A stretch of 64,000 bases of DNA from Sipunculus nudus (Eukaryota > Annelida > Sipuncula > Golfingiida > Sipunculidae), in assembly GCA_026874595.1 (NCBI GenBank), contig CM049306.1:20887019-20951018 (forward strand), read 5' to 3'. Below, piece by piece: positions 6,401-61,736 of this stretch. Position numbers and translations under genes: made by a program. Below the pieces are notes generated by a model. The model was given only the letters and a program-made list of their open reading frames with translations. It had not been told where the DNA came from and searched no databases. The stretch's first letter is position 1, and every line of letters begins with the position of its first letter.

Positions 6401-7404
6401 GTGGATGCATTTTTAGCCAAACATTTCATCTCAGGTCTTTCATCTTGCACATATAGTTCACCTGCCAAGAGAGGAAGAACCCTATCAGTTTTGAGGTCAC
6501 AAGGTCAAAGGTGAAGGTCACAGGAGCCATCTGTCCAAAAATTAGTTTCTGGATGATAATTCCATCTTTTACTGATGTATGGATTTCAAACTTGGCTTTG
6601 TTATTGACCCATTAGAAAAGCAAGACCCAAATTGATTTTAGGGTCATGAGGTCAAAAAGGTCAAGGTCACAGGAAACCTCTTTAAAAAGATTGTGGATGC
6701 ATTTTCAGCCAAACAATTCATCTCAGATCTTTCCTCTTGCACATATAGTTCACCTGCCAAGAGTGGAAGACCCCTATCAATTTTGAGGTCACAAGGTCAA
6801 AGATGAAGGTCACAGGAGCCATATGTCCAAAAATTAGTTTCTGGATGATAATTCCTGCTTTTATTGATGTATGGATTTCAAACTTGACTTGTATATGTCC
6901 CATTGGAAAAGTAAGACCAAAATTGATTTTGGGGTCATGAGGTCAAAGGTCAAGGTCACAGGACACATCTTAAAAAGAGGTGGGTGCATTTTCAGCCAAA
7001 CATTTCATCTCATATCTTTCATCTTGCACAAATAGTTCTCCTGCCAAGAGGATGAACACTATCAATTTTGAGGTCACAAGGTCAAAGGTGAAGGTCACAG
7101 GAGCCATCTGTCCAAAAATAAGTTTCTGGATGATAATTCCTGCTTTATTGATGTATAGATTTCAATCTTGACTTGCATATGTCCCATTGGAAAAGCAAGA
7201 CCCAAATTGATTTTGGGGTTATGAGATCAAAGGTCAAGGTCACAGGACACATCTTTAAAAAGATCAAGGTCACAGGACCAACATCTTCAACAAGATTGTG
7301 GATCTTTAGATGGAATAAACAATAGATATGCCAAGTGTCAGTATATGCTGCTAAAAATGGGGGTCTGTTCTTGTAGGAGGGGGGCCTACTATGTCTGGGG
7401 ATAC
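3383..7404. mobile_element. 4.0-kb non-autonomous element with 17-bp TIRs and internal satellite (family A)
   Basis: The ends are near-perfect inverted repeats: GTATCCCCAGACAAAGT on the left and, on the other strand, GTATCCCCAGACATAGT on the right (16/17). Just inside the left end is a short hairpin (TCCCC...GGGGGA), then the motif GGATACTATGTTTT, then a CCG repeat (about 3427-3463). Next comes a unique-looking block of about 520 bp that includes GGTGGCGCCACC at 3731-3742, followed by the satellite array to about 7265. The gypsy integrase frame on both sides shows that the element landed inside that fossil. No clear target-site duplication is visible. No coding capacity was found; the short open frames are all repeat translations. 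It could be a Helentron-like (HINE) or a TIR-type element. Confidence 0.75.
3985..7265. repeat. Satellite array, about 11 units of ~288 bp, rich in AGGTCA half-sites
   Basis: The landmark CTGGATGATAATTCC recurs about every 288 bp (near 4255, 4543, 4833, 5121, 5410, 5698, 5981, 6270, 6551, 6840, 7130). Each 288-bp unit is itself two diverged halves of about 145 and 143 bp. Both halves begin TTTTGRGGTCA and both carry a cluster of AGGTCA repeats. From about 4590 the units alternate between two variants (ACTTATATATGTCCC and TGTATTTGACCC), giving a higher-order period of about 577 bp. About 23 half-site clusters are visible between 4050 and 7240. The many short open reading frames here, on both strands, are repeat artefacts. 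Confidence 0.9.
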
Positions 7405-9082: not shown

Positions 9083-10246
9083 ATCCGCCAAAAGAGATTT
9101 TTGGATACTACGTTTTTGACCGGGTTCCGCCGCCGCCGCCGTATTCGTTTCCGGAATAGAACTGGACCGAATTTTCCGAAACTTTACACCATTATTGGGT
9201 AACGTGGACTGGTGCCAAAATATTTTGCATTGACATCTGACCTTTTCTCTCTCCATTTCGTCCATCTGTGCGTCTGTTTTGACACATTAACCCACATATC
9301 ATCGGACTCGTTTGACCAATCAGGCTAAAAAATTTGCACAAATGTAGCCCTTGGATAGCTTTATAACATACACAAAAAATGGTGTCGCGCAGTCTGCAAC
9401 CATTTTTGCACAGCGTCCATATGTTCATCTGCCTTGGGATAAAATCACTCAAATCTCTGCAGTGGTTGCACTTATCCACCTGAAACTGCATGTGTATACA
9501 TCCTGGATAGCTTTCTTGATTTAATGACAGATTGCGCCACCTACATTCACGTTCAGGCTGCAGACATCCAGGCTTTTATATCAGGACTGGTTTGATATAT
9601 CCTCCTTAAATTTTGCATGTGTATAGATTTTACATAGCTATTTATCATACGGAAAACTAGTGGCGCCACCTGCAACATTTTTGCACAGCGTCCGTCTGTT
9701 TGTCTGCCAAGGGATAAAATCACTCATATCCCGGCAGTGGTTTGTCTTATCTGCCTAAAATTTTGCATGTATATACATCTTGGATAGCTTTCTGGATTTG
9801 TGGCAGGTGGCGCCACCTACATTTATGTTTACGCTGCAGACATCCAGGCATTTATCTCAGGACTGGTTTTATATATCCTTCTGAAATTTTGCATGTGTAT
9901 AGATCTTACACAGCTCTTTATCATAAGAAAACTGGTGGCGCCACCTGCAACCATTTCTGCATAGCGTCCTTCTGTTTGTCTGCTGTGGGATAAAATCACT
10001 CGTATAGAAGCAGTGGTTTGACTTGTCTGCCTAAAATCTTGCATATGTATACAACTTGGATAGCTTTCTGGATTTTGTGGCAGGTTGTGCCACCTACATA
10101 CACATTTCCGCTGCAGACTTCTATGCTAATATGCAACACGCCTCACTCTATTTCCACTTGCCACTCAATCCATGCCTCACTTCACCCGTCCCACTCTGAT
10201 TTCGGCGGATACACGTAGTCGCTTGTCGACTACCCGTATTCTAGTT
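9083..10246 (+). mobile_element. Family B tandem-repeat element, copy 1
   Basis: The left end has TATCCGCC (9083-9090) followed by GGATACTACGTTTTTGACC and a short CCG run. The right end has GGCGGATA (10204-10211), then a hairpin GTAGTCG...TCGACTAC (10215-10233), ending near CTAGTTT. The interior is built of half-units of about 148 and 128 bp. Most open with or contain GTGGCGCCACCT (near 9661, 9808, 9936), and they carry the repeated phrases TTTTGCATGTRTATA and CTGCAGACATCC. An inverted second copy lies in MFSD3 intron 2 at 32,921-34,522; sharing of both ends defines the element limits. No coding capacity was seen. Confidence 0.8.
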
Positions 10247-17371: not shown

Positions 17372-19384
17372 ATTTAGACAGACTTGACCCTACAGTGAGC
17401 TCTAAGCCAATGTTGCCATGACAACATTGACATCTTCCTTGTGTAACAGTGAAATAAAATTGTATATTTTTACAGTGTCCCAGGTTCTCAGTTAAAAAAT
17501 AATAATATAAATTACATTAATTGAAGTAATTATGTCATAATATGTAATTCACATAATCATTTCAGCTAAGTAAAATGATATTATAGTCCCACAAATACAA
17601 CCAGAAGGTAGGTAGAGAGGACATTTAATTTATGGGGTGCTGAAGGGGCAGGCAGCCTAAGTTTAATTCACAAGGTTTTCTGTCAGGCTCATTGTCTACC
17701 CTTCCTTTTTTTTGTACATTATCTGTTATCTTTAGAATGTTCAAGGATAAAATATAGAAATTTGGCCCTAGTGAGACAATATCTACTACATTTGCACCAA
17801 CCAGCTTGGAATTCTATTTACAATTATGTCAATGATTGTTTGAGCACCTGCCTTTTTTGTTGGGCATAGTTGGGTCCATATCAAGGACCTTTGCAGTCTC
17901 AGTTATTTCTAGTTGATTTATGGCAGTCATGTCTTGCCCACTAACATTGGTTAACTTTGGGGCAGTGGTCAAAGCTTATACATGCTTATAACAAGCTGAT
18001 TTCACTCCTTTTAAAACTGGTTTGTTGGCTGATGATGAAAAGTTTTGCTTGTATATCATTTGGACAATGGTTAAAATTATACATTGCCAAACTGTCTGTA
18101 AGCTGGTTTAAGGTTTGTTTAGGTGATTGGTATCAAGTGGGTGGGGTTGATGTTGCTCAGCTGGCTACTATGACATCTCCTAGGCTGGGCTGTCTGCAGC
18201 TGTGGAATGTATCTTGGCTGTTTTGTGCTGGGCTTGGTTTGGTATTGTCTTTCATCTAGAGCTATATCTCCTTTATATAATATTACCTATATTTTGGTCA
18301 AAACAATAAAACTATCCACTTTGCATTGCCAAGGGAGCTGGCTCGGCACCGTTTTTACTGAATCAACAGCTCGGGCACCATCTTTTCCTGTTGTATCATA
18401 AACCTAGTTTATTTACAAAGATCACATTTTGTGCCCTTAATACATTTCTTGGATAATATTTTGTATTTTCAGTACCATAGACTGGGCAAGGTGAAAAAAA
18501 GTTGTACATAGGTTGTAGTCTGTGAATTACATATCTTGTGCTACATCAAGATATAACAGAATTGGCCCTTTGACTAACTTGCCCCTCCCCCCTTCTCCAT
18601 CCCTTCTTTTTTTGAAAAACCTTAAGATAGCCTCAGCTTTTATTTGGCTGTACTGTCAGGTTCTGCAGCTCTGGGATCAAGAGTTGGTTTTAAAAATCTG
18701 TTTAGTTTGTTTTGGCCTTCCTTAGGAGTATTTGACAAATATTAACTGATGTTTTAAAATCACCTGTGATAGTAAATATTAATCTTCTTGTCAGAATTCT
18801 TTCCCAGTTTATAAAAGAACACTAGCATCATCAATAACTGCCCATTGTTTTATTTCTTATTTAAATAAATGTGTAAATATTTACCAGTATGTATTAATAT
18901 TGGGAATCAGTTATAATTTCATGATCAGTCATCAGTAAAAATCAGTTGACCTCTACCAACTGATAATCAGAATTAATTGGTTTTATTGGAGTATGAATTT
19001 TTTTCCCTATGTACAGACCTATACATTGTCTCACAATATGCAGGCATAAATATTTGGTACTATATATAAAATTATAAACCATATGTGTGTATAGTAACCT
19101 TGGGTATGAATTTATCAGTAAACATATGTACTTTGCTATAGTTCGCTCATATGAATTAAATAAAAGCATACATTTCCTCTCCACAAAGCCCAAGTTATGT
19201 GAAAAACTCAGAAATTGATTATATAATATTTTGCACCAACCGACTGATCATTGATTATAATCAGTCATCAACCCATCACTAACATGTACTTGTAATTAAG
19301 TGGTCAAGGTGAGACCATTGTTTAATAGGTACCACTAACTTTAATTGTCTGCTTTCTGATATATGACTTGATTTGTCTTTACAG
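17372..19384. other. Upstream region of the ankyrin/SOCS gene; no exon proven
   Basis: No domain-bearing frame is visible. The only useful signal is at the right end: a pyrimidine-rich stretch ending in TTTACAG at 19,378-19,384, a good splice acceptor just before the ankyrin/SOCS coding exon. One or more 5' exons may lie here, or further left, but none can be identified by reading. Confidence 0.35.
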
Positions 19385-19443
19385 GACATTCACCATGTTG
19401 GTTCAACTCTGCCAGCAATCATCCTAGGTATGAAAAAAAGAGT

Positions 19444-22224
19444 ATGAGACAATGCTCTGGCCTCAAGCTCAGCACTGAAGCCCAAGACCAAGCAAAAGAT
19501 GGCCAATTAAAAGTGGATGCTGATGCTGGAAGCAGAGTACAAGAGAAGTCAAAGAAAGCCAGAAGCTCAATGGGGGACGCTCAGACTAAAGGACAAGGAA
19601 AGGACACCCAAGCTGTCAATGTGAGCAGTAGTACTGATGCTCAGAGCAATGAACAAGAGAGGGCTAAGGATTCCTTTGCATCAGCTTTTGATAATGCTGC
19701 TCAGAGCAAGGATCAAGAGACATGTCCCCAAGCATTTGGATCAGCAGGGAACCCTTGTACTCCTAGCAAAGACACAGAGAGGGCTGTCATAGCCTCCAGT
19801 TCAATAAAGGATAGCGATAGTCTGGGTATGTCAGGTGTGTCATCATTGTCATCCCCATCTTCCAAGGAAAAAGAGAAATCTGGCCTCATGCTAAGCTCAC
19901 CTGATGACTCCAGTACGACAAGTGCTGCAGAAATCTCTGGCTTGTCTTTAAGTTCACTGAGTGATGTCCCTCAGGACTACGCCACCAGAGCAGCTTTGGC
20001 TATTGAGCAGGGAGATATTGATGAACTGGACAGGCTCCTACAAAAGTGCTGTCATGTCAATGCTGCTTGCGAATCAGGAAAAACGCTTCTGCATCTTGCT
20101 TGTGAAAGAGAGTCTGTGGCATCTTGCAGTCTGTTACTCTCACAGCCGGGTGTAGATGTAAATATCGTTGACAGTGAAGGGAGGACACCCTTATTTATTG
20201 TAGCCCGAATGGGAAATCATCAAATCCTTCGTCAGCTTGTACATTATGCTTGTGACTTTGATGTTAGAGACTCGCAAGGAAATACAGCGTTACACATTGC
20301 AGCAGAGAGTAACCAGACCAGGATGTGCTCGGACCTTATAAAAGCAGGCGCAGATGTTAATTCACAGAATGCTGAAGGTGAAACACCGTTAATCCTGGCT
20401 GTGATCGAGGAAAACTTGGAGACTGTCAAAGTGTTAATCTCACATGGGGCTTGTTTGGATAAAGCTAACGATACAGGTGCTTCACCATTAACTTATTCCT
20501 GCATATGTGGCTTTCTAGAGGTTGCATCATATTTGGTGGCAGTGAAATGTTCAATTAACCACAGAGACTCCTATGGAAACACACCTTTGATGCATGCTTG
20601 CCTGTATGGACATTGCAAGACGGCCAGGTTTTTGATGGAGAATGGTGCTGATGTAACAGTAACTAACAACCTAGGTCGCAGTGCACTACATATTGCTGCT
20701 GATAATAGTCACGCAACGATTGTCCAAGACCTAGTCAAGCACAATGCTGATCCGTCTCAGCTGGCACTGGGGAAAACCCCTCTGGCATTAGCTGCCATGC
20801 AAGGCCATGCAGCTGTTGTGGACATTTTAGCAAAAACTAAGAAAGCTGTGAATTTGGTGGATGATATCAGTATGACTGCTCTCCATTGGGCTGTCATTGG
20901 TGGCCACACACATTGCGTTAAAATCCTATTGGATCATGGTGCAGATGCAAATTTAAGAAATGCTGGCACTGGGAATAATGCACTGATATTAGCAACCGAT
21001 TGTGGGTACTCTGAAATCGTTAATCTGTTAGTGCACAGTAATTGTAATGTAAACGCTGTCAACTGCCAAGAGAGGTCTGCCCTTCACGAGGCTGCTGAGA
21101 AGGGATTTTTAGATATCTGCGAGCTTTTGATTCCAGCTGGTGCTTATGTGAATGCGCAAAGTTCTCAATGTGAAACCCCGTTAATGTTGGCCACACGCCG
21201 AGGCCACACACCAGTGGTTGGTTTCCTGCTGGACATGAGCAGTGATGTCCACATGACCAACAGTCGCAGCATGTCTGCGTTGCACGAGGCAGCCCTGTGG
21301 GGGTTTAGTGCCCTGACGTACATGCTGCTGAAGGCAGGGTCCAGTGTGGATCTGCCAGACAGTGAAGGTGACACACCCTTGTTGATGGCTAGTATGAAAG
21401 GACACGGAGCCGTGGTACAGCTGCTGCTTCAGAACGGTTGTGATATGAACTGGGTCAATGAGATGGGTAGGACAGCCTTGATGGAAGCTGCCGAACATGG
21501 CTGTGAAGATGTTGTTAAACTTCTAGTCAATGCCGGTGCAGATGTCAATGTATGTGACACAGAGCAAGATTCAGCTTTGACCTTGTCCTCTGCTAAGGGT
21601 CACTACAAGGTTGTACAGCAGTTGCTGCAGGTAGACTGTGATTTGTATCATGCAAACAGATGGGGGCGTAATGCCCTGCATGAAGCCTGTGCCATGTGGT
21701 CTGGACCTGTACAGACAGTGGAGTATCTGTTACTGGCTGGATTAGATCCTGACATTCCAGATTATATGGGGAACCCCCCACTGATACTGGCAACACTTGG
21801 AAGCAGTGCTACTATTGTGCGTGAGTTATTAAAAGGCAATTGTGATGTTGATCAGCCTGGGAAATCGGTGCATGCTGGGAATGCAGTCCATGCCATCCAG
21901 GTGGCGGTGACCAATGAAACATTTCCCATCGCTCAGATGTTGTACCTGGCTGGATGTGATATGAACGCTGTGAACATCTGGATGCAGACTTCAGCAGGCT
22001 TGGTGTACATGCTACCAGTTCGTAATCTTGATCTCAAGACCTGGCTCATGGAGGTTACCTCCAACACCGCCCCACTCAAGCTCCTCTGTAGGAGCAAAAT
22101 ACGTAAATGTCTTGGAAAAGGCATAATATTTAAACTCTGTCAGTTGCCAGTGCCAACTATAGTACAGGATTACCTGGCAATGGCTGACTTGGACGAGTTT
22201 GTAGTTGCTGATGAAAAAAAGTAA
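19444..22224 (+). CDS. Ankyrin-repeat and SOCS-box protein (ASB-like), large single-exon form
   Basis: 926 residues uninterrupted. Residues 1-178 are a Ser/Lys/Gln-rich low-complexity region with no fold I recognise. From about residue 179 to 845 there are about 20 ankyrin repeats of roughly 33 residues (for example EGETPLILA, MGRTALMEAAEHG, AGADVN). A SOCS box follows at about 877-914: LKLLCRSKIRKCLG fits the elongin-B/C box, and LPVP fits the LPxP cullin-5 box. ASB proteins of this plan are substrate-recognition subunits of Cul5-Rbx2-elongin B/C ubiquitin ligases; the substrate here is unknown. Known vertebrate ASBs are mostly 300-650 residues, so this one is long. The ATG at 19,444 is the first in frame, but the frame stays open 19 codons further upstream to a splice acceptor at 19,384, so a preceding coding exon is possible. 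An upstream ATG at 19,394 opens a 10-codon frame that ends before the start. TGACGTCA lies downstream at 22,582. Confidence 0.88.
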   Translation: MRQCSGLKLSTEAQDQAKDGQLKVDADAGSRVQEKSKKARSSMGDAQTKGQGKDTQAVNVSSSTDAQSNEQERAKDSFASAFDNAAQSKDQETCPQAFGSAGNPCTPSKDTERAVIASSSIKDSDSLGMSGVSSLSSPSSKEKEKSGLMLSSPDDSSTTSAAEISGLSLSSLSDVPQDYATRAALAIEQGDIDELDRLLQKCCHVNAACESGKTLLHLACERESVASCSLLLSQPGVDVNIVDSEGRTPLFIVARMGNHQILRQLVHYACDFDVRDSQGNTALHIAAESNQTRMCSDLIKAGADVNSQNAEGETPLILAVIEENLETVKVLISHGACLDKANDTGASPLTYSCICGFLEVASYLVAVKCSINHRDSYGNTPLMHACLYGHCKTARFLMENGADVTVTNNLGRSALHIAADNSHATIVQDLVKHNADPSQLALGKTPLALAAMQGHAAVVDILAKTKKAVNLVDDISMTALHWAVIGGHTHCVKILLDHGADANLRNAGTGNNALILATDCGYSEIVNLLVHSNCNVNAVNCQERSALHEAAEKGFLDICELLIPAGAYVNAQSSQCETPLMLATRRGHTPVVGFLLDMSSDVHMTNSRSMSALHEAALWGFSALTYMLLKAGSSVDLPDSEGDTPLLMASMKGHGAVVQLLLQNGCDMNWVNEMGRTALMEAAEHGCEDVVKLLVNAGADVNVCDTEQDSALTLSSAKGHYKVVQQLLQVDCDLYHANRWGRNALHEACAMWSGPVQTVEYLLLAGLDPDIPDYMGNPPLILATLGSSATIVRELLKGNCDVDQPGKSVHAGNAVHAIQVAVTNETFPIAQMLYLAGCDMNAVNIWMQTSAGLVYMLPVRNLDLKTWLMEVTSNTAPLKLLCRSKIRKCLGKGIIFKLCQLPVPTIVQDYLAMADLDEFVVADEKK

Positions 22225-28443: not shown

Positions 28444-28868
28444 CTAGTCCACCTTCTTGTGAAAATGCTCTGTAAATTCTTCCTCTGGTTCTTCTTCATT
28501 TATATCATCATTATCATCATCATCATCATCATCATAATTATCATCCTCATTAGTAACCCTTGTAGGCTTGTGGTACTTTCCTAATGTTACAAACTGTTCA
28601 GGAATCCTGTTTAACCACACTACTGTCATACCTGACAGCATCACAAATAACAAGTAAGTTTGTCTGTGTCCGATTGAATCGACGATAAATCCACTGACTG
28701 ACATGAACAGAAGCTTCCCAAGGACCTCTAGGGTCGCCAGTGTTGTGTAGTGTGTAGCTTGGACAACAGGGGGTGCTGTTCTTGAGCATTCCATCATTAA
28801 GGTAAATGTTGCAGTGGTCAACATGCCTCCCACCAACAGGATTCCATTCATGCATATAATTGACAAGT
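28444..28868 (-). CDS. MFSD3: MFSD3-like transporter, exon 4 (last coding exon)
   Basis: The acceptor is at 28,869-28,870 (pyrimidine-rich CATCTATTTACTTACAG), phase 1, which fits exon 3 exactly and yields LMLHYLSIICMNGILLVGG. The exon encodes the last transmembrane part of MFSD3 with the conserved phrase ATFTLMMECSRTAPPVVQAT, then ATHYTTLATLEVLGKLLF. It ends in an acidic tail with an Asp run encoded by a GAT/GAC triplet run (plus strand 28,506-28,541), then the stop at 28,444-28,446. The open frame continues upstream of the acceptor, but that sequence is the 3' end of a repeat element and is not part of the protein. The acidic tail is absent from the vertebrate protein as I know it. Confidence 0.85.
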
Positions 28869-28904
28869 CTGTAAGTAAATAGATGACAAATAAAACACTT
28901 CCTG

Positions 28905-28998
28905 AAGATGCATAAAATTTGGTAATGCTAGCTCCTGCCATTTTTGAGATAGTATATGTTAACATACAGATGACACCACACCATGGCATAAGATCACA
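28905..28998 (+). repeat. 3' end of a family E element in MFSD3 intron 3
   Basis: The phrases ATAAAATTTGGTAATGCTAGCTCC, GACACCACACCATGGCATAAG and terminal GCTAAAAAAAA match the 3' ends of the family E elements at 57,700-57,765 and 59,030-59,145. It stops about 36 bp short of the exon 4 splice acceptor. Confidence 0.75.
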
Positions 28999-29239
28999 GC
29001 TTAGCTAAAAAAAAGTCAAATTTGGATGGACCTGGATCCAGACCTACATTTCAAAAGTGAACCTATTGGTCTGAAAATTATGATTTTTTTGTCTTTCTCC
29101 CATGGCCCATCTTTCTGCAAAATTTCATTGAAATTTATTCAAAACTTTCAAAGATATGGCTAGGGCAAACACACACAAAAGCATGGCCGATAACATAACC
29201 CCCTGCTACCTTCCAAGATAATGTGAATATGTTTGATCT

Positions 29240-30058
29240 CAGTGTATTGTACTGTGAGAAAAAAACTAGTTTGTTGTTCCACATGGTCAGTAATACCAGC
29301 ACGGTGCCTGTGTGTGTACTTACAGTGTACTATGAGTCCTGACATAATTAGTTTGTCGGACCACATAGTGGTACCAGCAAAATTACCCTTGGGCATCAGG
29401 TTCAGTAAACACAGTTGATGGACAGTAGTGCCACTGTACCAGCAACATCCACTGTGTGTTTTTACTTACCATGTAGCATGAGGTATGACAGTAGTTTGTT
29501 GTACTACATGGTCAGTGGTACCAGCACCATGTCCTGGGGCATCATGTTCAGTAAATACAAATGATGGTCAGAAGTACCACTGTACCAGCACCATGCCCTG
29601 TGTGTGTGTGTACTTATAGTGTAGCATGACACATGAAAGTAGTTTCTTGTACCACATGATCAGCAGTACCACTGTACCAGCACAATGCCCTGTGTGTATG
29701 TGTATGTGTACTTAGTATAGCATGAGGCATGACAGCAATAGGTTGTGCCACATGGCCAGTACTACCAGCACCATGCCCTGTGTGTGCGTGTACTTATAGT
29801 GTAGCATGAGGCATGACAGTAGTTTCTTGTACCACATGATCAGTAGTACCACTGTACCAGCACAATGCCCTGTGTGTATGTGTATGTGAACTTACAGTGT
29901 AGCATGAGGTGTGACAGCAATAGGTTGTGCCACATGGCCAGTACTACCAGCACCATGCCCTGTGTGTGTGTGTGTGTGTGTATGTATACTTACAGTGTAG
30001 CATGAGGCGTGACAGCAGTTGGTTGTACCACATGGTCAGTAGTACCAGCACCATGCCC

Positions 30059-30090
<32 letters not shown>

Positions 30091-31020
30091 CTTACAGTGT
30101 AGCATGAGGCGTGACAGCAGTTGGTTGTATCACATGGTCAGTAGTACCAGCACCATGCCCTGTGTGTGTGTGTGTGTGTATGTGTACTTACAGTGTAGCA
30201 TGAGGCGTGACAGCAGTTGGTTGTACCACATGGTCAGTAGTACCAGCACCATGCCCTGTGTGTGTGTGTGTGTGTGTATGTTTACTTACAGTGTAGTATG
30301 AGGCGTGACAGCAGTTGGTTGTACCACATGGTCAGTAGTACCAGCACCATGCCCTGTGTGTGTGTGTGTGTATGTGTACTTACAGTGTAGCATGAGGCGT
30401 GACAGCAGTTGGTTGTACCACATGGTCAGTAGTACCAGCACCATGCCCTGTGTGTGTGTGTGTATGTGTACTTACAGTGTAGCATGAGGCGTGACAGCAG
30501 TTGGTTGAACCACATGGTCAGTAGTACCAGCACCATGCCCTGTGTGTGTGTGTGTGTGTATGTGTACTTACAGTGTAGCATGAGGCGTGACAGCAGTTGG
30601 TTGTACCACATGGTCAGTAGTACCAGCACCATGCCCTGTGTGTGTGTGTGTGTGTGTGTATGTGTACTTACAGTGTAGCATGAGGCGTGACAGCAGTTTC
30701 TTGTACCACATGGTCAGTAGTACCAGCACCATGCCCTGTGTGTGTGTGTGTGTATGTGTACTTACAGTGTAGCATGAGGCGTGACAGCAGTTGGTTGTAC
30801 CACATGGTCAGTAGTACCAGCACCATGCCCTGTGTGTGTGTGTGTGTATGTGTACTTACAGTGTAGCATGAGGCGTGACAGCAGTTGGTTGAACCACATG
30901 GTCAGTAGTACCAGCACCATGCCCTGTGTGTGTGTGTGTGTGTATGTGTACTTACAGTGTAGCATGAGGCGTGACAGCAGTTGGTTGTACCACATGGTCA
31001 GTAGTACCAGCACCATGCCC

Positions 31021-31054
<34 letters not shown>

Positions 31055-31059
31055 CTTAC
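29240..31059 (-). repeat. Minisatellite of about 18 copies derived from MFSD3 exon 3 plus its splice donor
   Basis: Each unit (90-105 bp) holds, on the minus strand, GGCATGGTGCTGGTACTACT to CTACACT|GTAAGTAC, that is, the last 64 nt of MFSD3 exon 3 with its 5' splice site. A variable CA/TG run (5-11 dinucleotides, with TATG) precedes the next unit. Copies from about 29,990 to the true exon are nearly identical. Copies from 29,240 to 29,900 are diverged. The two at about 29,335-29,420 and 29,460-29,570 also include the 5' part of exon 3 (GGGCATCA.GTTCAGTAAA on the plus strand), so the earliest events copied the whole exon. Long open frames across the array are repeat translations, not genes. 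Confidence 0.92.
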
Positions 31060-31178
31060 AGTGTAGCATGAGGCGTGACAGCAGTTGGTTGTACCACATG
31101 GTCAGTAGTACCAGCACCATGCCCTGGGGCATCATGTTCAGTAAACACAACTGATGGACCAGAACACCAGCAGGTATC
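31060..31178 (-). CDS. MFSD3: MFSD3-like transporter, exon 3
   Basis: 119 nt. The acceptor is TGTATTGTAG at 31,179-31,180 and the donor GTAAGTAC starts at 31,059. Entry phase 2 and exit phase 1 agree with exons 2 and 4. It encodes RIPAGVLVHQLCLLNMMPQG, then MVLVLLTMWYNQLLSRLMLH, which covers the region of transmembrane helices 8-9 in MFSD3. The final 64 nt are the template of the minisatellite that fills the following intron, so this functional exon is flush with its own array of copies. Confidence 0.85.
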
Positions 31179-31733: not shown

Positions 31734-32741
31734 CAAGGGACCCATGGGTCACATCGCTCAGCTGAATTTTTGAAAATATTAGTAACTGCAAAATATTTTT
31801 ATTTCTTTTGGTTTTTCATGTATATTTTCATTTGACAAGCTATGAGAAAATGGCCCCTGCTAAAATGAAACTCTGTAAATTATAGAATAATGGACATGAG
31901 CTAAACCATTTAGTGATGCAACAAGGGAAAAAATGGGCCTACAGTAAGTGTAATATAAAAGTAACATTGAATGAAGATTCTAGGTCCAGTTGTTACAATT
32001 TGTGCCATGTAAACAGATGACAGCATCCTTAAAGGTCTCCAAAATAGAGAAAAAAATTCGAAAAATTGAATAAAATATAGGTGGCACCACCAGTCTGCAG
32101 AAACTGATGAAACACTCCATAAAAAATATCCATCCAAAGAATCATGGTGATCTCTGCATTAGCTGTTCAGATACTTCAGCTTTAGTACCAAATTTTCCAT
32201 TATTCTGAGGGATACTTCGGAGTCCTATAGCTTGAAGGATATGGGTAACAGAGACCTGATTTCAGGTTTCCACAGACACTTTTCATGGGCCTCCTTGCAT
32301 GACAAGTATGAAGATTCTAGGTCCAGTTGTTATGATTTGTACCCTGTTGACAGATAACCACATCTTTAAAGGTCTCAGAAATAGAGAAAAAAAATTAGTA
32401 AAAATTTGAAGAAATAGAGGTGGCGCACCCAGTCTGCAAAAATTGATGGAACACCTTATGATCAATATGTATGCCAAAAATCATGACCATCAGTGTTTTA
32501 GTTAATGAGATACTGCAGTTTTTATATCAAATTTTTCATTATTCTTATGGGTATTTTGGAGCCATACAGCTTAAAGGATATGGGTAACAGAGACCTAATT
32601 TCAGTTTTTCATGGAGACTTTTCATGGGTCTCCCTGTGTGTCAAGAATGAAGATTCTAGGTCCAGTCCATACGATTTGTGCCCTGTTAATAGATGTTCAT
32701 ATCTTTAAAGGTCGCAAAAGTAGAGAAAAATATTCGTAAAA

Positions 32742-35700
32742 CAAGTGACCCATGGGTCATGACGCTCAGCTGACTGGGAGGAGATTCACAAAAGGAAATT
32801 TTAGCATCAGAATGGTAGATACCCATTCAACTGAAGCATCAAACAGATTAACCAACAGGCCAAGATTTAGTCTGTATTTATATATCTGAAAAATAGAGAA
32901 AAAATGTGTAAACTTTAAAAACTAGAATATGGGTAGCCGACAAGTGACTACGTGTATCTGCCAAAATCAGAGTGAACTGAGGCATGGATTGAGTGGCAAG
33001 GGGAAACAGAGTGAGGTATGTTGCATATTAGCATGGATGTCTGCAGCCTAAATGTGTATGTAGGTTGTGCAACCTACCACAAATCCAGAAAGCTGTCCAA
33101 GTTGTATACATATGCAAAATTTTAGGCAGAAAAGTCAAACCACTACAGTGATTTTAGCCCACGGCAGACAAACTGACAGACGCTGTGCAAAAATGGTTGC
33201 AGTTTTGTGTATGATAAAGACCTATGTGAGATCTAAACACAAGCACAATTTTGGCCCAATCGGTCAAATGGTCCCTGAGATATTAGCTTGGATGTGTGCA
33301 GCGTTAACTAGAATGTAGGTGGCGCCACCTGTCATAAAATCAAGAAAGCTATCCAGGATGTATAAACCTGCAAAATTTAAGGCAGTTATGTCAAACCACT
33401 ACAGAGAAATGAGTGATTTTAGGCCACGGCAGACCAACAGACAGACGCTGTGCAAAATGTGCAAAAATGGTTGCAGGTGGCCCCTCCAGTTTTGTGTATG
33501 ATAAAGACCTATGTGAGATCTATACACATGCAAAATTTTGGCCCAATCGTTCAAACGGTTCCCGAGATATGAGCTTGGATGTCTGCAGCATAAACTAGAA
33601 TAAAGGTGGCGCCACCTGTCATAAAATCAAGAAAGCTATCCAGGATGTATAAAACTGCAAAATTTTAGGCAGATATGTCAAACCACTGCCAAGATGTGAG
33701 TGACTTTATTGCACGGCAGACAAACAGACAGACGCTGTGCAAAAATGGTTGCAGGTGGTGCCACCAGTTTTGTGTATGATAAAGAGCTATGTTAGATCTA
33801 TACACATGCAAAATTTTGGCCCGATCGGTCAAACGGATCCCGAGATATGAGCTTGGATGTCATCAGCGTGAACGTGAATGTAGGTGGCGCCACCTGTCAT
33901 AAAATCAAGAAAGCTATCCAGGATGTATAAAACTGCAAAATTTTAGGCAGATATGTCAAACCACTGCCGAGATATGAGTGACATTATTGCACGGCAGACA
34001 AACAGACAGACGCTGTGCAAAAATGGTTGCAGGTGGCGCCACCAGTTAAGCGTATGATAAAGAGCTATGTTAGATCTATATACATGCAAAATTTTGGCCC
34101 GATCGGTCAAACGGTTCCCGAAATATGAGCTTGGATGTCATCAGCATGAATGAGAATGTAGGTGGCGCCACCTGTCATAAAATCAAGAAAGCTATCCAGG
34201 ATGTATACGCATGCCGAATTTCAGGTGAATTAGTCAATTCACTGCAGAAATATGAGTGATTTTAACCAAAGGCAGATGAACAGATGGACACTGTGCAAAC
34301 ATGGTTACAGGTGGCGCCACCATTTTTTGTGTATGTTATAGAGCTATCAAAGGGCTACATTAGTATAAATTTTATTTCCTGATCGGTCAAACGGTTCCCG
34401 AGATATGAGCTTGGAAAGCTGATAAAATCAAGTCCCAGAGGAGCTCTCTGGAAATGAACGCGGCAACGGCGGAGGAACCCGGTCAAAAACATAGTATCCA
34501 CAAAACTTCGTTTTGGCGGGTACAAAAATACAGGTGGCTCCACCAGTCTGCAGAAACTAATAAAAACACTTACAAACATCAATATCCATGCAAAGAATCA
34601 TGGTGATCTCCCCATTAGTTGTTCAGATACTTCAGCTTTTGTATCAAATTGTCCATTATTCTGAGGGATACTTCGGAGTCCTATAGCTTGAAGGATATGG
34701 GTAACAGAGACCTAATTTTAAGTTTCCACAGGCACTTTTCATGGGCCTTCTTGCATGACAAGAATGAAGATTCTAGGTCCAGTTGTTGCGATTTGTACCC
34801 TGTTGACAGATAACCACATCTTTAAAGGTATCAAAAAAAAGAGAAAAAAAATCGTAAAAATTTGAAAAAAATAGTCTGCAGAAACTGATGGAACAGGTCA
34901 TGATCAATATGTATGCCGAAAATCATGACCATCAGTGTTGTAGTTATTGAGATACTGCAGTTTTTGTATCAAATTTTCCATTATTCTAGGGGGGTAATTT
35001 GGAGCCATACAGCTTAAAGAATATGAGTAACAGAGACCTAATTTCAGGTTTCCATGGAGACTTATCATGGGTCTCCCTGTGTGTCAACAATAAAGATTCT
35101 AGGTCTAGTCCTTACGATTTGTACCCTGTTGACAGATAACTACATCCTGAAAGGTCTCGAAAATAGAGAAAAAAAAATTGTGAAAATTTGAAAAAATACA
35201 GGTGGCACCACCAGTCTGCAGGTACTGATGAAACACCTCTTGATCAATATGTATGCCAAAAATCATGACCATCAGTGTTGTAGTTATTGAGATGTTGCAG
35301 TTTGTTTTTATCAAATTTTCCATTATTCTGGGGGGTTATTGGGAGCCCCCCATAGCTCAAAGGATATGGGTAACAGAGACCTTATTTCAGGTTTCCATGC
35401 AGACTTTTTATGGACCTCTCAGTGTGTCAAGAATGAAGATTCTAGGTCCAGTCTTTATGATTTGTGCCCTGTAAACAGCTGTTCACATTTTTAAATTCGT
35501 AAAAAATCGAAAAATTCAGGTGGCGCCACCAGTCTGCAGGAAGTGATGGAACATCTCATGATCAATACGTATGCCAAAAATCATGACCATCAGTCAAGTA
35601 GTTAATGAGATATTGAAGTTTTTGTATGAAATTTTTTACTTTTTTGGGGGGTACTTTGGGGCCCCATAGCTCAAAGGATATGGGTAACAGAGATCTAATT

Positions 35701-36546
35701 TATGGTTTCCACGGAGACTTTTAATAGGTTTCTCAGTGTGTCAAGAATGAGGATTCTAGGTCCAGCGGTTACGATTTGTGCCACGTTAACAGATGACAGG
35801 ATCTTTAAACGTCTCAAAAATAGAGGAAATAATTGTAAAAAAATCGAAAATTACAGGTGGCGCCACGAGTCTGCAGGAACTTATGGAACATCTCATGATC
35901 AATATGTATGCCAAAAATCATGACCATCAGTGTTGTAGTTATTGAGATATTGAAGTTTTTGTATGAAATTTTTTACTATTCTGGGGGGTAATTTGGGGCC
36001 CCATAGCTCAAAGGATATGGGTAACAGAGACCTAATTTCTGGTTTCCAAGGAGATTTTTCATGGACCTCTCAGTGTATCAAGAATTAAGATTCTAGGTCT
36101 AGGCTTTACGATTTGTGCCTTGTTAACAGATGTTCACATTTTTAAAGGTCTCAAAAATAGAGAAAAAAATTTGTAAAAAATCGAAAAATACAGGTGGCGC
36201 CACCAGCCTGCCGGAAGTGATGGAACATCTCATGATCAATATGTATGCCAAAAATCATGACCATCAGTCAAGTAGTTAATGAGATATTGAAGTTTTTGTA
36301 TGAAATTTTTTACTTTTCTGGGGGATTCTTTGGGGCCCCATAGCTCGAAGGATATTGGTAACAGAGACCTAATTTCTGGTTTCCAAGGAGATTTTTCATG
36401 GACCTCTTAGAATCCCAAGTTACAAGGTTCTAGGTTCAGCGGTTACGATTTGTGCCTGCTTAACGGACGGACAGACGGACAGATGGACGACGGACAAAGA
36501 GTGATCGCTTTAGCTCAGATGACTTTCAGTCAGCTGAGCTAAAAAA
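32742..36546 (+). mobile_element. Family C element C2, inserted in C1 and itself interrupted by family B
   Basis: The start is CAAGTGACCCATGGGTCATG and ACGCTCAGCTGA. The end near 36,546 has the GACGGAC tract and the terminal hairpin TAGCTCAGATGACT-TTC-AGTCAGCTGAGCTA (13 of 14 pairs). Its own sequence is 32,742-32,920 plus 34,523-36,546, with units of about 335 bp at about 34,527, 34,870, 35,208, 35,517, 35,856 and 36,190. Confidence 0.7.
32921..34522 (-). mobile_element. Family B tandem-repeat element, copy 2 (inverted), inside C2
   Basis: This is the inverse of the 9,083-10,246 element. It opens with ACTAGAATATGGGTAG and the hairpin GTAG.CGAC...ACTAC, and ends with GGAACCCGGTCAAAAACATA and a CAAAAC-TTC-GTTTTG hairpin beside GGCGGG. 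The interior alternates half-units of about 149 and 128 bp that start GGTGGCGCCACCTGTC or GGTGGCGCCACCAGTT (near 33,318, 33,606, 33,755, 33,883, 34,032, 34,161, 34,311). Non-coding. Confidence 0.8.
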
Positions 36547-38195
36547 CCCAAACAAATATACGTGGTGCCATCAATCTGCAGAAACTGATGAAACATTCCA
36601 TGATAAATATCCATGCAAACAATTATGGTGATCTCTGCATTAGTTGTTTAGATACTTCAGCTTTTGTATCAAATTTTCCATTATTCCGAGCTGTACTTTG
36701 GAGTGCTATTGCTCAAAGATATGGGTAACAGAGACCTAATTTCAGGTTTCCATGGAGACTATTCATGGGTCTCCCTGTGTGTCAAGAATGAAGATTCTAG
36801 GTCCAGTAGTTACAATTTGTACCCTGTTGACAGATAACTACATCCTTAAAGGTCTTATAAATAGAGAAAAAAAATTGTGAAAATTTGAAAAAATACAGGT
36901 GGCGCCACCAGTCTGCAGGAACTGATGGAACACTTCTTGATCAATATGTATGCCAAAAAATCATGACCATCAGTGTTGTAGTTTTTGAGATGTTGCAGTT
37001 TTTTTTTTATAAAATTTTCCATTATTCTGGGGGGGGGGGGGGGTAATTGGGAGCCCCACAGCTCAAAGGATATGGGTAACAGAGACCTAATTTCAGGTTT
37101 CCATGGAGACTTTTCAATGGTCTCTCACTGTGTCAAGAATGAAGATTCTAGGTCCCGTCTTTACTATTTGTGCCCTGTTAACAGATGTTCTCATTTTTAA
37201 AGGTCTCGAAAATAGAGAAAAAATTCGTAAAAAATAAAAAAATACAGGTGGCGCCACCAGTCTCCAGGAACTGATGGAACACTTCTTGATCAATATGTAT
37301 GCCAAAAATCATGACCATCAGTGTTGTAGTTTTTGAGATGTTGCAGTTTTTTTTTAATCAAATTTTCCATTATTCTGGGGGGTAATCGGGAGCCCCACAG
37401 CTCAAAGGATATGGGTAACAGAGACCTAATTTCAGGTTTCCATGGAGACTTTTCATGGGTCTACCTGTGTGTCAAGAATGAAGATTCTAGGTCCAGTCTT
37501 TACGATTTGTGCCCTTTTAACAGATGTTCACATTTTTAAAGGTCTAAAAATAGAGAAAACAATTCATAAAATATCAAAAAATACAGGTGGCACCACCAGT
37601 CTGCAGAAACTGATGAAACATCTCATGATCAATATATATGCCAAAAATCATGACCATCAGTGATGTAGTTAATGAGATTTTGAAGATTTTTTATGAAATA
37701 TTTGACAATTCTGGGGGTTACTTTGGGGCCCCATAGCTTGAAGGATTTGGGTAACGGAGACCTAATTTCTGGTTTCCATGGAGACTTTTCATCGGTCTCT
37801 CACTGTGTCAAGAATGAAGATTCTAGGTCCCGTCTAAACTATATGTGCCCTGTTAACAGATGTTCTCATTTTTAAAGGTCTCGAAAATAGAGAAAAAAAT
37901 TCGTAAAAAATAAAAAAATACAGGTGGCGCCACCAGTCTGCAGGAACTGATGGAACATCTCATGATCAATATGTATGCCAAAAATCATGACCATCAGTGA
38001 TGTAGTTAACGAGATATTGAAGTTTTTGTATGAAAATTTTTACTATACTGGGGGGTACTTTGGGGCCCAATAGCTCGAAGGACATGGGTAACAGAGACCT
38101 AATTTCTTGTTTCCAAGGAGATTTTTCATTGACATCTCAGAATTTCAAGTAACAAGATTGTAAGTCCAGCGGTTATGATTTGTGCCAGGTTAACG

Positions 38196-42240: not shown

Positions 42241-43274
42241 ATGGCAGATGGCGCCACCAGTCTTGCATACAAGATGGAAGAGGCCAAGATCTATGGTTAA
42301 TGCACAGTTTGACCAATACAGCAGACCACTCCTAAGAAAAGAGCATTAATTTATTCTACAAAAAAGGAAAGGTAGGTGGCACTACCTGTCTGTTCTATGA
42401 GAAAATTTTCCACGATGAATATACATGCCAAATTTAAGGCCAATACCTTGAACCATATCTGGAGATATGAGCAATATTCATTGAAAGCACATGTACAGAT
42501 TGACATAACATCAAAATGATTGCAAATGGTGCCACCAGTTTTGCGTACTAGATGAAGGAGTCCAAGATCTATGGATATGCACAATTTCAGACCAATAGGC
42601 CAAATCACTCTTGAGAAAAAGGCATTAATTTGTTCTACAAAAAAGGGAAGATAGATGGAGCCACCTGTCTGGTCTACGAGAACATTTTCCATGATGAATG
42701 GACATGCTAAATTTCAGACAAATACCTTGAACCACTCCGGAGATAGAAGCAATTTTCACTGAAAGCACATGTACAACTGGACTTAACGGCAAAATGATTG
42801 CAGATGGTGCCACCAGTCTTATGTACAAGATGATGGAGTCCAAGATCTATTGATATGCATAATTTCAGGCCTATAGGGTTAATCACTCCTCAGGAAAGGG
42901 CATTAATTTATTCTACAAAAATGGGAAGGTAGGTGGTGCCACCTGTCTGGTTTACATGAAAAATTTTAAAGATGGATGGACATGCCAAATTTCAGACAAA
43001 TACCCTGAACCACTCCAGAGATTTAAGCTATTTTCACCAAAGCACATGTACATATGGACGCCACAGCAAAACAATTGCAGATGGCACCACCAGTCTTGAG
43101 TAAAAGATGGAGGAGTGCAAGATCTATAGATAGGCACAATTTATAGGCCAATAGGGCAAATCACTCCTCAGGTAAGGGCATTAATTTATTCTACAAAAAC
43201 GGGATTGCAGATGGCTCCACCAGTCTTGAGTAAAAGATGGAGGATTGCAAGATCAATGTACATGCACAATTTCA
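42241..43274 (+). repeat. Family F tandem array
   Basis: About seven half-units of 130-155 bp, alternating AGGTGG.RCYACCTGTCTG and AGATGG.GCCACCAGTCTTG (near 42,247, 42,376, 42,530, 42,657, 42,806, 42,934, 43,080, 43,208). Shared phrases are ATGCACAATTTCAG, CACTCCT.AG and GGGCATTAATTTATTCTAC. It joins the left fragment at 31,545-31,733. Confidence 0.75.
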
Positions 43275-44170: not shown

Positions 44171-44318
44171 CTGTGCCGTGATATCAGCCAACCTGAGGCC
44201 AATGAACCAGCGATAGACACAGCCTGCCCGACCACACCAGACCAGAAACTCACGTCAGAGGCGGACATCTTCTGATCCACCAGGAACAGAGGCAGCATGC
44301 TGACCATCCCTTGTTCAC
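44171..44318 (-). CDS. MFSD3: MFSD3-like transporter, exon 2
   Basis: 148 nt. The acceptor TACTATTTCATTCAG ends at 44,319 and the donor GTCAGTAA starts at 44,170. Phase 1 in and phase 2 out, matching exons 1 and 3. It encodes GEQGMVSMLPLFLVDQKMSA then SDVSFWSGVVGQAVSIAGSL, and joins exon 1 to give IYKLGEQG, a hallmark of MFSD3 (vertebrate YKLGEQG). About 15 bp beyond the acceptor lies a diverged family C start (GATCCATGGGTCATGGC), so repeat sequence comes almost up to the pyrimidine tract. Confidence 0.88.
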
Positions 44319-46872: not shown

Positions 46873-47770
46873 CTAATTTATAAATCAGGACAAACCCAGC
46901 CACCCATCTGGTCCCATCGGACTTTAGAACAGCTTTAAAGATTTTCGAGATGGTTTGATTTTGTCCTGATGTTATGGTTTCAGACATTGGACATTCTGAG
47001 TTAATGTCAGCATCTCTTGCATAGTCTTCTTCATCCTCTGACTGCTTCCACTCATCCACATCTTCCAAGCTATCAGCCTCCGTATCAGAACCTCTTATTT
47101 GAGTATAATCATCTTTTTGATCATTTAATGGATCACCTGGGCAATGTGTAGATTCATATTTATTAGGATCATCGACTGATGAAGGTGAATTTTTATGTAT
47201 AATTTTCTTCGGCTCTGACATAAACCGCAGAACAGGAGATAAATAAACAAACATGGCTGCCTCCATGTAAACGAGACTTAAGGCTACAAACATTCCCCGC
47301 CAGCCGATATACTCCATCAGCATCACTAACACACCACCTCCGAATATCGACCCGATTTTGTACCCCACAACCTGCGCTGAGTTCCCATGCCCTAGTTCTG
47401 CATCCGAAAGCACTAAGACAGCAACTGCATCCGCAGCTATGTCCTGCATAGCTGCAAAAACATTCAACAAAAACAAGACAACACAGATACACCCCCAACA
47501 GTCTTTGGGTAAAACAGCTCCTAAAATACAGGAGGCCACCAGACCAAGGATACTGAAACAAAGCCATTTTTGTTTAGTTCCCCATTTGTCCACCAGGGGT
47601 GCCCATAGCGCTTTACACAGCCATGGCAACAGTAGCACTTTGAGTAGACTGACTTGAGTGAGTGAACTTCCCTGACTTCGGAGATATATTGGCAAGAATT
47701 TGACCTGAAACCCATATGGCAAGCCTTGTATGAAGTATAGAAATGTTAGCAGTAAGATGTTTGAGGCCAT
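46873..47770 (-). CDS. MFSD3: MFSD3-like transporter, exon 1 (first coding exon)
   Basis: Major facilitator superfamily protein. Family placing rests on FIQGLPYGFQVKFLPIYLRS, LPWLCKALWAPLVDKWG and AAMQDIAADAVAVLVL, followed by GNSAQVVGYKIGSIFGGGVL, the MFSD3/acetyl-CoA-transporter-like pattern. The ATG at 47,770 sits in a strong context (AAACATGG). Residues 1-182 hold helices 1-6. Residues about 183-283 form a long acidic cytoplasmic loop, much longer than in the vertebrate protein. VAGFVLIYKLG starts helix 7. The exon ends G|GTGAGT at 46,873 (phase 1). Exons 1-4 (898, 148, 119, 425 nt) add up to 1,590 nt, 529 residues plus stop, with all phases compatible. The transported substrate is not established for the family as far as I know. 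Gene span is 19.3 kb, mostly repeats in introns 1-3. Confidence 0.9.
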
Positions 47771-53454: not shown

Positions 53455-53523
53455 CAGCGTACAATCCGTGCAGGTTAACGGGGTCATTCATGCATTCAGG
53501 TGTGTTCATGTAGTTATGAGATC

Positions 53524-54468
53524 ATGGAGTCATTGTCAAATCCCTCGCTTGGTGACCCGTTCCCGACAACCAGCGATACGTTCAGCGATGTAAGATATGA
53601 AGTAGACACAGATAAAATATTCATCGATGGACCAAACTTAGCCCCGGTCTCACTGAAGCCAACTATCACAGATAAACTGGTTCGATTGCACCGACGTATG
53701 ACTATGGATATAATCCTCAGTGCTGCCACCAATGTGCTGGTGTATGCACTAATCGTGACACTCTGCATTCTGCTACCGGTGGCGACACGGCGCGGACTAA
53801 ATACTGAAGAAGTTACAGCTCTCGTTCTGCTTGCATGCTGTGCGGTTCCTGCATATGGGTTCGTCTGTGTCAGAGAAGGATTAAGACGAAAATCTGTCAT
53901 TGCTCATTTCTTACGCAACCAAATAACTCAAGAAGAAATTCAAAAACAATTATTTGACCGAATCCGCGCAGCACCAGAGCTATTATTTTCAATCAAACTT
54001 AAAAGAGGCGCAGTTTCAAAAGAATCAGCTGATCACTGGACGCGAACGGACCGTTGTACAAGTCGTACAATATCTTACACTTCATGGGAGGATTGTAGTG
54101 CATCGGTTCGAGACTTGCAATGGCCTGAAACGGGACCAGCTTGGATTATCGTAGCTAAAGATTACAGTGCCAGAAACAAGACTGCAAATTCGGCCATCTG
54201 GACAGATGTCGCCACCTTCAAAAAGGAAGCCGGATTTGATGAGTACATGTATTTTATGGAAGCGGAGTTACATCTTGGATTAGAAGGAATGAAAGCCACA
54301 GGAGACTGGGAACTGTATTTTGTAAGAAATAACAAACCCTTCTGGGCCAATCTCACGCTATACCGCATCATGTGTTTGACCAGCACAGACATTATTTTTA
54401 GACTTATTTTTATTTGCTCCACCCGAGCTATGGGAAATTATTTGCTTAAGAAGTTTATAGAAAAGTAG
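53524..54468 (+). CDS. TMEM151-like membrane protein
   Basis: 314 residues in one exon. Two hydrophobic segments lie near residues 62-86 and 96-117. A soluble middle region with a Trp/Tyr-rich pattern (ISYTSWEDCS, AWIIVAKDYS) follows, then EAGFDEYMYFMEAELHL, then two hydrophobic C-terminal segments (about 275-300) and a basic end, YLLKKFIEK. Order and spacing resemble TMEM151A/B, whose corresponding region reads ENEGLDDYMEAREGMHL and ends VEKLFG; identity is low, so it is a divergent relative. TMEM151 function is poorly known. I chose the ATG at 53,524 because no earlier in-frame ATG exists after the upstream stop near 53,476. A 7-codon upstream frame (ATG 53,490 to TAG 53,511) ends 12 bp before the start. 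CATTCAG at 53,499 could be a splice acceptor. A candidate AATAAA lies at 55,243. Confidence 0.6.
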   Translation: MESLSNPSLGDPFPTTSDTFSDVRYEVDTDKIFIDGPNLAPVSLKPTITDKLVRLHRRMTMDIILSAATNVLVYALIVTLCILLPVATRRGLNTEEVTALVLLACCAVPAYGFVCVREGLRRKSVIAHFLRNQITQEEIQKQLFDRIRAAPELLFSIKLKRGAVSKESADHWTRTDRCTSRTISYTSWEDCSASVRDLQWPETGPAWIIVAKDYSARNKTANSAIWTDVATFKKEAGFDEYMYFMEAELHLGLEGMKATGDWELYFVRNNKPFWANLTLYRIMCLTSTDIIFRLIFICSTRAMGNYLLKKFIEK

Positions 54469-60187: not shown

Positions 60188-61116
60188 TCAAATATTTTTC
60201 AGGTAGTCTTCCTGCAGTCTCAGATGAAAATCGTGGTCTGCTAATTCCAGACGGGGAGAGTAACGGCCCCAGTCATAACCACGTGACTTTAGCCCTTTCT
60301 GCACACGTTCACATATCTCGATGTCCTCTTGCTGGACGGTCTCACTGGCCTCCAGGTTATCTTTCACCAGCTTCTCAAGTTCTTCCGGAGACGCGCTGCC
60401 GTGGTGCTTGGAATCCAAGAACCAATCAAAGACTACTGTGCAACTGTTTGGACCATCTGGGAACACGTAGTTGATATCGAGCCAAGGCCCGTAGCGGTTT
60501 AGCATCACGTTAGGGTAGATATGTGTGTACAACACTTTGCTTCCGACCCGATCTTGAGGTCGGCTGTCGTTACCTTGACCCCCTGACCCCTGGATTGAGA
60601 AACCATCGAAGAGTTCTGTTTTGTACGAGTCCAAAGAGAGTAAACCCGCAAGGGCTTTGTGAGCGTATTCCACGTGGTAACCTCCGTCAAGATAGTTGTC
60701 CACGTACACTTTCCAATTGCACTTGATTTCGTAGGATCTGTTTTCGACATGTTTCATGGTACGACTGTCTCCGAATTCGTCCATCCGCGCAGTCAAGGTA
60801 GCCAGTTTCGTGGAGAGCTCGCCAGGTGGCGCCCCTGACAGGTTGAGGAAGATCAGGGGACCCCATTCGGCCACATTAATTGGCTTCAGGCCAAATTCTT
60901 TTGCCTTAAAATCTTGGATTCCTCGCAAACGGGTGGCTTTCAACAGACGCCCATCTAAGCCATACTGCCAGCCGTGATAAGGACACGTGAAGCATTTCGT
61001 GCTTCCGTGAGCCTCCTCCGTAACCAAGGTCGCGTGATGACGACACACGTTGTAGAAAGCTCGGAGTTCCCGGTTCTCGTCACGTGCCACAATGTACGGC
61101 TCATCTCCGATGAAAC
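60188..61116 (-). CDS. Rieske non-haem iron oxygenase, choline-monooxygenase-like, last exon
   Basis: The acceptor TATTTTCAG at 61,117-61,118 and entry phase 1 fit the upstream exon and give YVTGFIGDEPYIVARDENRE. The Rieske [2Fe-2S] site is CRH...CPYH (NVCRHHATLVTEE, then CFTCPYHGWQYG). The catalytic domain has NWKVYVDNYLDGGYHVEYAH, with the two His ligands spaced H-x4-H. FDWFLD is a candidate for the region of the acidic ligand. The stop is at 60,188-60,190. The order matches plant/bacterial choline monooxygenase and related Rieske oxygenases. It is unlike the animal sterol desaturase Neverland/DAF-36, which carries a membrane anchor. Choline monooxygenase makes betaine aldehyde from choline with ferredoxin; the substrate here is inferred from family only. 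309 codons in one exon. Confidence 0.85.
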
Positions 61117-61736
61117 CTGAAAATATACTAAGATCGTAGAAACATGTGCAGTGTGCTTGGAGATATATAATGGTTTGAGTACTCGATTTGTGTCAGCAAA
61201 ATTACCTTCTATCCTAAGTTTCCTGGCAATAGTCTTTGCATCCCCTTTCCACCCTGACTTATTAGGTTTTGCAAGCTGGATAATTCCTGAAGACCTGTGA
61301 TGAGTCTGTGTATCGTACCTAGATATAGTTACAAAGACAGAACCGACATTCCAGAAGTCCAGAATGAGCAATACAAGGTGTCGAATGAAACGGACATGGG
61401 CGGTAATATCGATCAGAATATCGATCTTCTACTATCGTCTACATATTTACATGATTCTATGATTTTATCTCAATTTTCCTATCATCAGATGGAAGAATCT
61501 GAAATCACACCCGAGTTTTCTCAGTGCTTAATGGTACAACAAACCTAAATGTTTAATACTTTTTTTTAATAAATTGGGCTTAAATAACTAAAGAGCACTG
61601 TTAAGAACTATGACTGTGTGATAAGCGTGATTAGCTTAACAGGACGACCTAGAGTGAGGTTTGTAGAAAAGGTTGCGGTGAAGTCTGGACTGTATATTTT
61701 TACTTGTGCTTCGGTCGGAATGGAGTTTGGTTTTAC

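Follow-up and report, generated by a model that had tools for sequence, protein, structure and literature searches.

A tandem array lies at 29,240-31,178 on the minus strand, inside an MFSD3-like gene of Sipunculus nudus, and it is real and far beyond what chance would produce. On balance, the best explanation is that the tail of a putative exon (exon 3), its splice donor, and the CA run behind the donor became an intronic minisatellite, which would be spliced out with the intron and whose copies would act as decoys. The window, that is, the whole stretch of 64,000 nucleotides that was analysed, comes from a single assembly and a single haplotype (a genome of 1.43 Gb in 153 contigs, the window being on contig C1).

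Minisatellites consist of units, from about 10 to 100 nt or slightly longer, that follow one another head to tail. TRF finds such an array at 29871-31126, with a period of 96, 13.0 copies, 93% matches, and a score of 2132, and it describes the same array also with a period of 288 over 29599-31126 and a period of 146 over 29367-29671. Units were delimited by cutting the array at the core GGGCATGG. Read along the minus strand, as are all coordinates of the array and the gene given here, the order is an exon-like segment, 15 short units (u1-u15), two older long units, and a fragment (u19). The exon-like segment is the putative exon 3, 119 nt long (31060..31178), and its tail, u0 (31124), is the first copy of the array unit. 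The short units are 88-102 nt in length and consist of a core of about 65 nt (longer in u13 and u15, at 73 nt), a donor, and a CA run, which among u0-u11 varies from 15 to 25 nt. Twelve of them, u1-u12 (29871..31020), carry the 65-nt copy of the exon tail, a GTAAGT donor, and the CA run, while the three older ones, u13-u15 (29599..29870), are without the GTAAGT donor. Beyond them lie u16+u17 (29453..29598), an older long unit of 146 nt that is homologous to nearly the whole of exon 3 and contains one TAG in frame, and u18 (29310..29452), the oldest long unit, of 143 nt, which is open in the exon-3 frame with 53% amino-acid identity and has a pseudo-exon of its own (29433-29324). The fragment u19 occupies 29260..29309, its low end being approximate. 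The preliminary description put the number of copies beyond the exon at about 18, in good agreement with the 17 copies and one fragment counted by core cutting.

In a search of the 1.43-Gb genome, all 16 matches to the array unit among the best-scoring candidates lie in this array alone, as do all 16 matches to the exon-3 peptide, and no copies elsewhere that would make the unit part of a dispersed repeat were found among those candidates. The stretch upstream of exon 3, acceptor included, likewise matches only itself among the best-scoring candidates; the second match of that query, upstream stretch plus exon, is the u16/u17 copy, and it covers the exon part alone. Within the window, the only other similarity to the array is a plain AC repeat at 59.7 kb. 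An inflated copy number caused by misassembly is extremely improbable: the sequence represents one haplotype, but the units differ in the length of the CA run and in private substitutions, and the array is shorter than 2 kb in a contig of 110.9 Mb, part of a 153-contig assembly that appears to be based on long reads.

The units follow a gradient of age, the young ones adjoining the exon and the old ones lying at the far end. The 12 youngest cores (u0-u11) differ pairwise by a mean of only 0.97 of 65 nt, and 6 of the 11 cores of u1-u11 are identical to the exon tail u0, so the inner copies are indeed near-identical to the end of the exon, as had been described. The core of u12 is about 9-11% different from the young cores, and those of u13-u19 are 12-41% off (in a forced global alignment with indels counted). 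Identity also recurs in blocks: with tails included, u1, u5, and u9 are 100% identical, u3 and u7 are 100% identical, and u2 and u6 are 98% identical. Farther out, u12-u15 form a two-unit higher-order repeat, with u12 and u14 95.4% and u13 and u15 94.5% identical. Together, the young blocks and the older dimer repeat suggest that several units were duplicated at once, as in unequal exchange, and it is most likely by such exchange that the extra copies have been kept alike. As for the homogenisation proposed in the preliminary description, the near-identity and the repeated blocks are both consistent with unequal exchange; conversion into the exon, however, would look the same as recent copying out of it. 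One young unit, u4 (30637-30736), has an AAGAA patch, that is, two changed bases otherwise characteristic of the old u13 and u15, and it is possible that the patch is a conversion tract across the array.

The unit probably originated from the last 64-65 nt of exon 3, which would encode part of a putative membrane helix, together with the GT donor and the CA run that follows. On the exon side the unit boundary falls at the CA of CCCCAGGGC, and the units close with a CA run, so that a first duplication by microhomology, with the intronic CA run joined to this exonic CA, would be simple. The array beside the exon was then probably enlarged by slippage in its CA runs and by unequal exchange among units, while the units at the far end, being older, drifted. 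The path first proposed, in which the exon was duplicated, trimmed from its 5' side at a CA run, and then expanded, is one of two orders that fit the long units. At the start of these, a head resembling the core (CAGGGCATGGTGCTGGTAC, in diverged form in u18) precedes the 5' part of the exon, which would mean either that the short junction predates them or that it formed later by deletion between two heads. The two outer copies, said to include the whole exon, contain nearly all of its 119 nt: local alignments start 6-9 nt inside the 5' end and stop short of the acceptor.

By its sequence, the host gene is MFSD3-like. The comparisons that follow used tblastn with a working version of the human MFSD3 sequence, and splice sites were scored with position weights that are approximate, rather than fitted to this organism. 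Exon 1 (898 nt, 46873..47770) ends in YKL-G, in phase 1, before a GTGAGT donor with a PWM score of 10.7; it is 46% identical to this human MFSD3 over 188 positions and matches Pfam MFS_1/Acatn. Exon 2 (148 nt, 44171..44318), which we take to be the TM7-TM8 region, ends in GWLISRH-AG, in phase 2, with a GTCAGT donor; it shows 42% identity over 59 amino acids, and its acceptor and donor score 7.75 and 9.29, respectively, by the approximate PWM. The last exon (28444..28868) encodes an acidic tail and the stop codon, is preceded by the acceptor CTTACAG/AC in phase 1, and is 46% identical over 90 positions. With exon 3 included, the joined protein belongs to the MFS family, matching MFS_1 with 104.7 bits and Acatn with 44.2 bits. 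In the PDB, the protein without exon 3 matches SLC33A1 and AmpG chains over its N-terminal half; the C-terminal half of either model, with or without exon 3, has no match there at an E value of 10.

Other features of the window may be recorded here. Tandem arrays with units of 276-339 nt lie at 31969-32741, 33200-34415, 35493-38129, 42244-43204, 3994-7264, and 9394-10118; four of these share the MFSD3 intron region with the minisatellite, and a motif resembling GGTGGCGCCACC occurs in some units. On the plus strand, a frame open from stop to stop over 950 codons (19372-22224) encodes many ankyrin repeats and, near its end, a SOCS box; another open frame, of 329 codons (53479-54468), has hydrophobic stretches and matches nothing in Pfam at an E value of 0.001. 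On the minus strand, 60188-61192 encodes a Rieske domain and the alpha-subunit domain of a ring-hydroxylating oxygenase, in what is apparently an animal genome.

We infer that 31178-31060 is probably used as exon 3 of this gene. Exon 3 has no stop in the frame set by exon 2, which ends in phase 2; it finishes in phase 1 itself, and its junction with the acceptor at 28868 (7.65 by the approximate PWM) is in frame, giving an open MFS protein of 529 amino acids. Of the acceptors close to the last exon that are entirely outside a dispersed repeat described below, this one scores best, and its pyrimidine tract lies outside the repeat as well. Exon 3 also improves the match to MFS_1 slightly, from 102 bits to the value given above over residues 8-415 for the whole protein, a small difference, and from 18.5 to 21.2 bits for the C-terminal half, a small gain, where the best stretch (15-131) crosses exon 3 but lies elsewhere (147-193) when exon 3 is left out. 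To call it the true exon 3, as the preliminary description did, goes beyond this evidence. It fits the phases and belongs to the better of two models, but its acceptor is weak, scoring 3.9, a value reached by 179 of the 653 AGs of the intron (approximate PWM), and the exon-3 peptide by itself has no match in Pfam.

It is possible, though we consider it rather doubtful, that the array is an ordinary intronic minisatellite whose edge unit merely resembles an exon, the gene using another internal exon or none. The absence of a family match to the exon-3 peptide would be expected in that case. Four further large tandem arrays lie in the intron. An open frame is found for 28 one-exon models, 10 of them in other arrays, 8 in the present one (exon 3 being among these), and 10 elsewhere. 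Exon 3 ranks ninth of the 28 by summed site score (approximate PWM), and 10 open pseudo-exons of the intron, exon 3 included, have a combined site score at least equal to that of exon 3. The eight models that outscore it, however, consist of five in other repeat arrays and three in u18, and exon 3 fits the phase both of exon 2 and of 28868. In favour of the rival reading, exon 2 can be joined in frame directly to an acceptor at 28999, giving a protein of 533 amino acids in which exon 3 is skipped. What decides against this route is where its acceptor lies.

A truncated copy of a dispersed repeat, 103 nt long, occupies 28909..29011 on the minus strand of intron 3, about 40 nt upstream of the last exon. 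It is 83-88% identical to all 17 of the genome places that were fetched; the other copies have a common sharp end, start with TTTTTAGC, and extend up to about 350 nt. The copy carries the acceptors at 29004, which is strong (6.7 by the approximate PWM), and 28999, and its long open frame mimics a transmembrane helix. Given its identity to copies across the genome, both acceptors, with the stretch that follows, belong to the repeat. A genome search with the skip protein leads to the same place: among 88 scored matches, three are the exons of this gene, one is an N-terminal match, and the remaining 84 overlap residues 352-379, many of them with stops. The skip model was rejected for this reason, its acceptor and its added helix-like segment both being repeat-derived; a weak second phmmer stretch to AmpG across its join has 8.3 bits and an E value of 7.6. 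Two other routes were rejected as well. Joining exon 3 to the repeat-borne acceptors at 29004 or 28999 shifts the frame and leads to an early stop, and joining its donor to the acceptor at 28901 (score 8.2), whose upstream tract is partly repeat-derived, makes a stop codon. Exon 3 is preferred over skipping because the in-frame rival acceptor sits inside the dispersed repeat.

Other comparisons either fail to separate the two models or favour skipping. The Acatn match falls from 46.5 bits without exon 3 to the value given above with it, and the model with exon 3 aligns to the working human MFSD3 with a score of 307, against 316 for the model with the repeat-derived segment. The alignment to human TM9 is uninformative, and neither model beats shuffled sequences, since 438 of 500 shuffles reach the observed score for exon 3 and 187 of 500 for the repeat-derived segment. 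When exon 3 was forced before the repeat-borne acceptor, now rejected, the score was 313 against 336, and the C-terminal MFS_1 match through that acceptor was 12.1 with exon 3 forced and 9.7 with a mini-exon, as against 18.5. The TM8-TM10 spacing, 53 amino acids with exon 3, 57 without it, and 55 in the working human sequence, does not discriminate, and 11% of the tracts without stops in the intron equal or exceed exon 3 in hydropathy. Exon 3 and u17 differ at 11 sites, with 3, 5, and 3 of them at codon positions 1, 2, and 3, so the lack of a third-position bias lends no support to coding. By codon usage, the exon-3 frame (frame a) ranks within the best 1.1% when set among 1314 intron tracts free of stops. 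Frame c has a still higher score, however, and so have the first 40 codons of the last exon of the skip model, which are largely repeat-derived and were part of the training set; the codon-usage score was therefore left unused.

If exon 3 is an exon, then the array multiplies its donor. On the gene strand, GTAAGT occurs 15 times in the array, where u13-u15 lack it, twice in the remainder of the intron, and 24 times in the whole window; TACACTGTAAGTA is present 13 times. When the exon-3 acceptor was paired with each GTAAGT of the array, the full protein resulted from 1 of the 15, the exon's own donor, and the other 14 gave a truncation of 408 amino acids. Inserting from 1 to 6 copies of one 64-nt mini-exon (CAG to GTAAGT) truncates the protein in every case. 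The short units thus do not give the open, interchangeable products expected of functional tandem alternative exons, though the model with u18 is open. With a single working donor, and with truncation by the other donors and by the mini-exons, the extra copies are most likely intronic decoys. Splicing would join the exon's own donor, at 31059, to the acceptor at 28868, and the array would most likely be removed with intron 3. The near-identical donors downstream and the CAG pseudo-acceptors may compete as decoys, and use of them breaks the protein in each form tested. Exon definition is an established idea for the choice of donors, and on that principle the proximal donor would win.

Perhaps, instead, some copies are used, the 64-nt units or u18 serving as alternative or poison exons that tune the output of MFSD3. 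The young units are flanked by CAG/GG, a pseudo-acceptor scoring 3.2 (6 of 6 scored), and by GTAAGT, scoring 6.3 (5 of 5 scored), u18 gives an open model of 526 amino acids despite several indels, and actual transcripts of human ABCA7 can keep a single unit of its VNTR, which puts them out of frame (PMC5954066). We nevertheless regard this as very unlikely, as one to six mini-exons and each longer form of exon 3 truncate the protein, and the u18 peptide is less hydrophobic than that of exon 3 (best 19-residue mean of 0.73 vs 1.62). The donor, moreover, is lost in u13-u15, so it was not kept by selection there. A different reading is that a constitutive coding exon is continuously exchanged with the minisatellite of its own tail, so that helix codons and donor evolve in concert with the noncoding intronic copies. 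New alleles would in that case add donors whose 65 nt of exon-side sequence is nearly, and often exactly, that of the real donor. This we think unlikely, though less so than use of the copies.

The preliminary description knew of no case of this exact kind. The exact build, an array of exon tail, donor, and pseudo-acceptor, was indeed not found in a literature search of partial coverage, but there is a close precedent in human ABCA7 (PMC5954066). The intron-18 VNTR of that gene flanks exon 18 and begins at its donor; it is transcribed and polymorphic, with a 25-bp unit present in about 12 to 427 units, and use of a donor one unit downstream, seen in transcripts as retention of one unit, puts the message out of frame and leads to a premature stop. 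The two cases share an array directly behind an exon, units that repeat the donor of the exon, and a downstream donor that is out of frame. The ABCA7 array, however, starts at the GT, its first copy being without coding sequence, whereas the unit described here holds 64-65 putative coding nucleotides and also a CAG pseudo-acceptor. The arrangement is thus of the same kind as that of ABCA7, and what would set it apart, if exon 3 is used, is a unit that takes in a pseudo-acceptor as well as the exon's final 64-65 nt.

Other systems resemble it in part. In a potato RdRp gene, tandem duplication of a sequence bearing splice signals likewise multiplies those signals, but there it creates a new intron, whereas here the copies would enlarge an existing intron and none new is inferred (PMC4974935). 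In the earthworm metallothionein clone Lr6F14, whose fourth exon is duplicated, the extra copies likewise lie outside the transcript; that case is described as exon duplications, in contrast to an expanded minisatellite of tail plus donor (PMC12783039). Coding minisatellites such as the zinc-finger array of Prdm9 likewise have codon-bearing repeat units and a rapid turnover, but their units are translated, whereas here the first copy alone would be.

If exon 3 is not used, then the array is an ordinary intronic repeat. If it is used, then the gene would offer a natural intron with a dozen donors in nearly the same exon-side context, in which the choice among them, and the rate at which that choice fails as units accumulate, could be read from RNA. 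A coding segment would also have joined the exchange of a minisatellite, and conversion from its noncoding copies could alter the protein.
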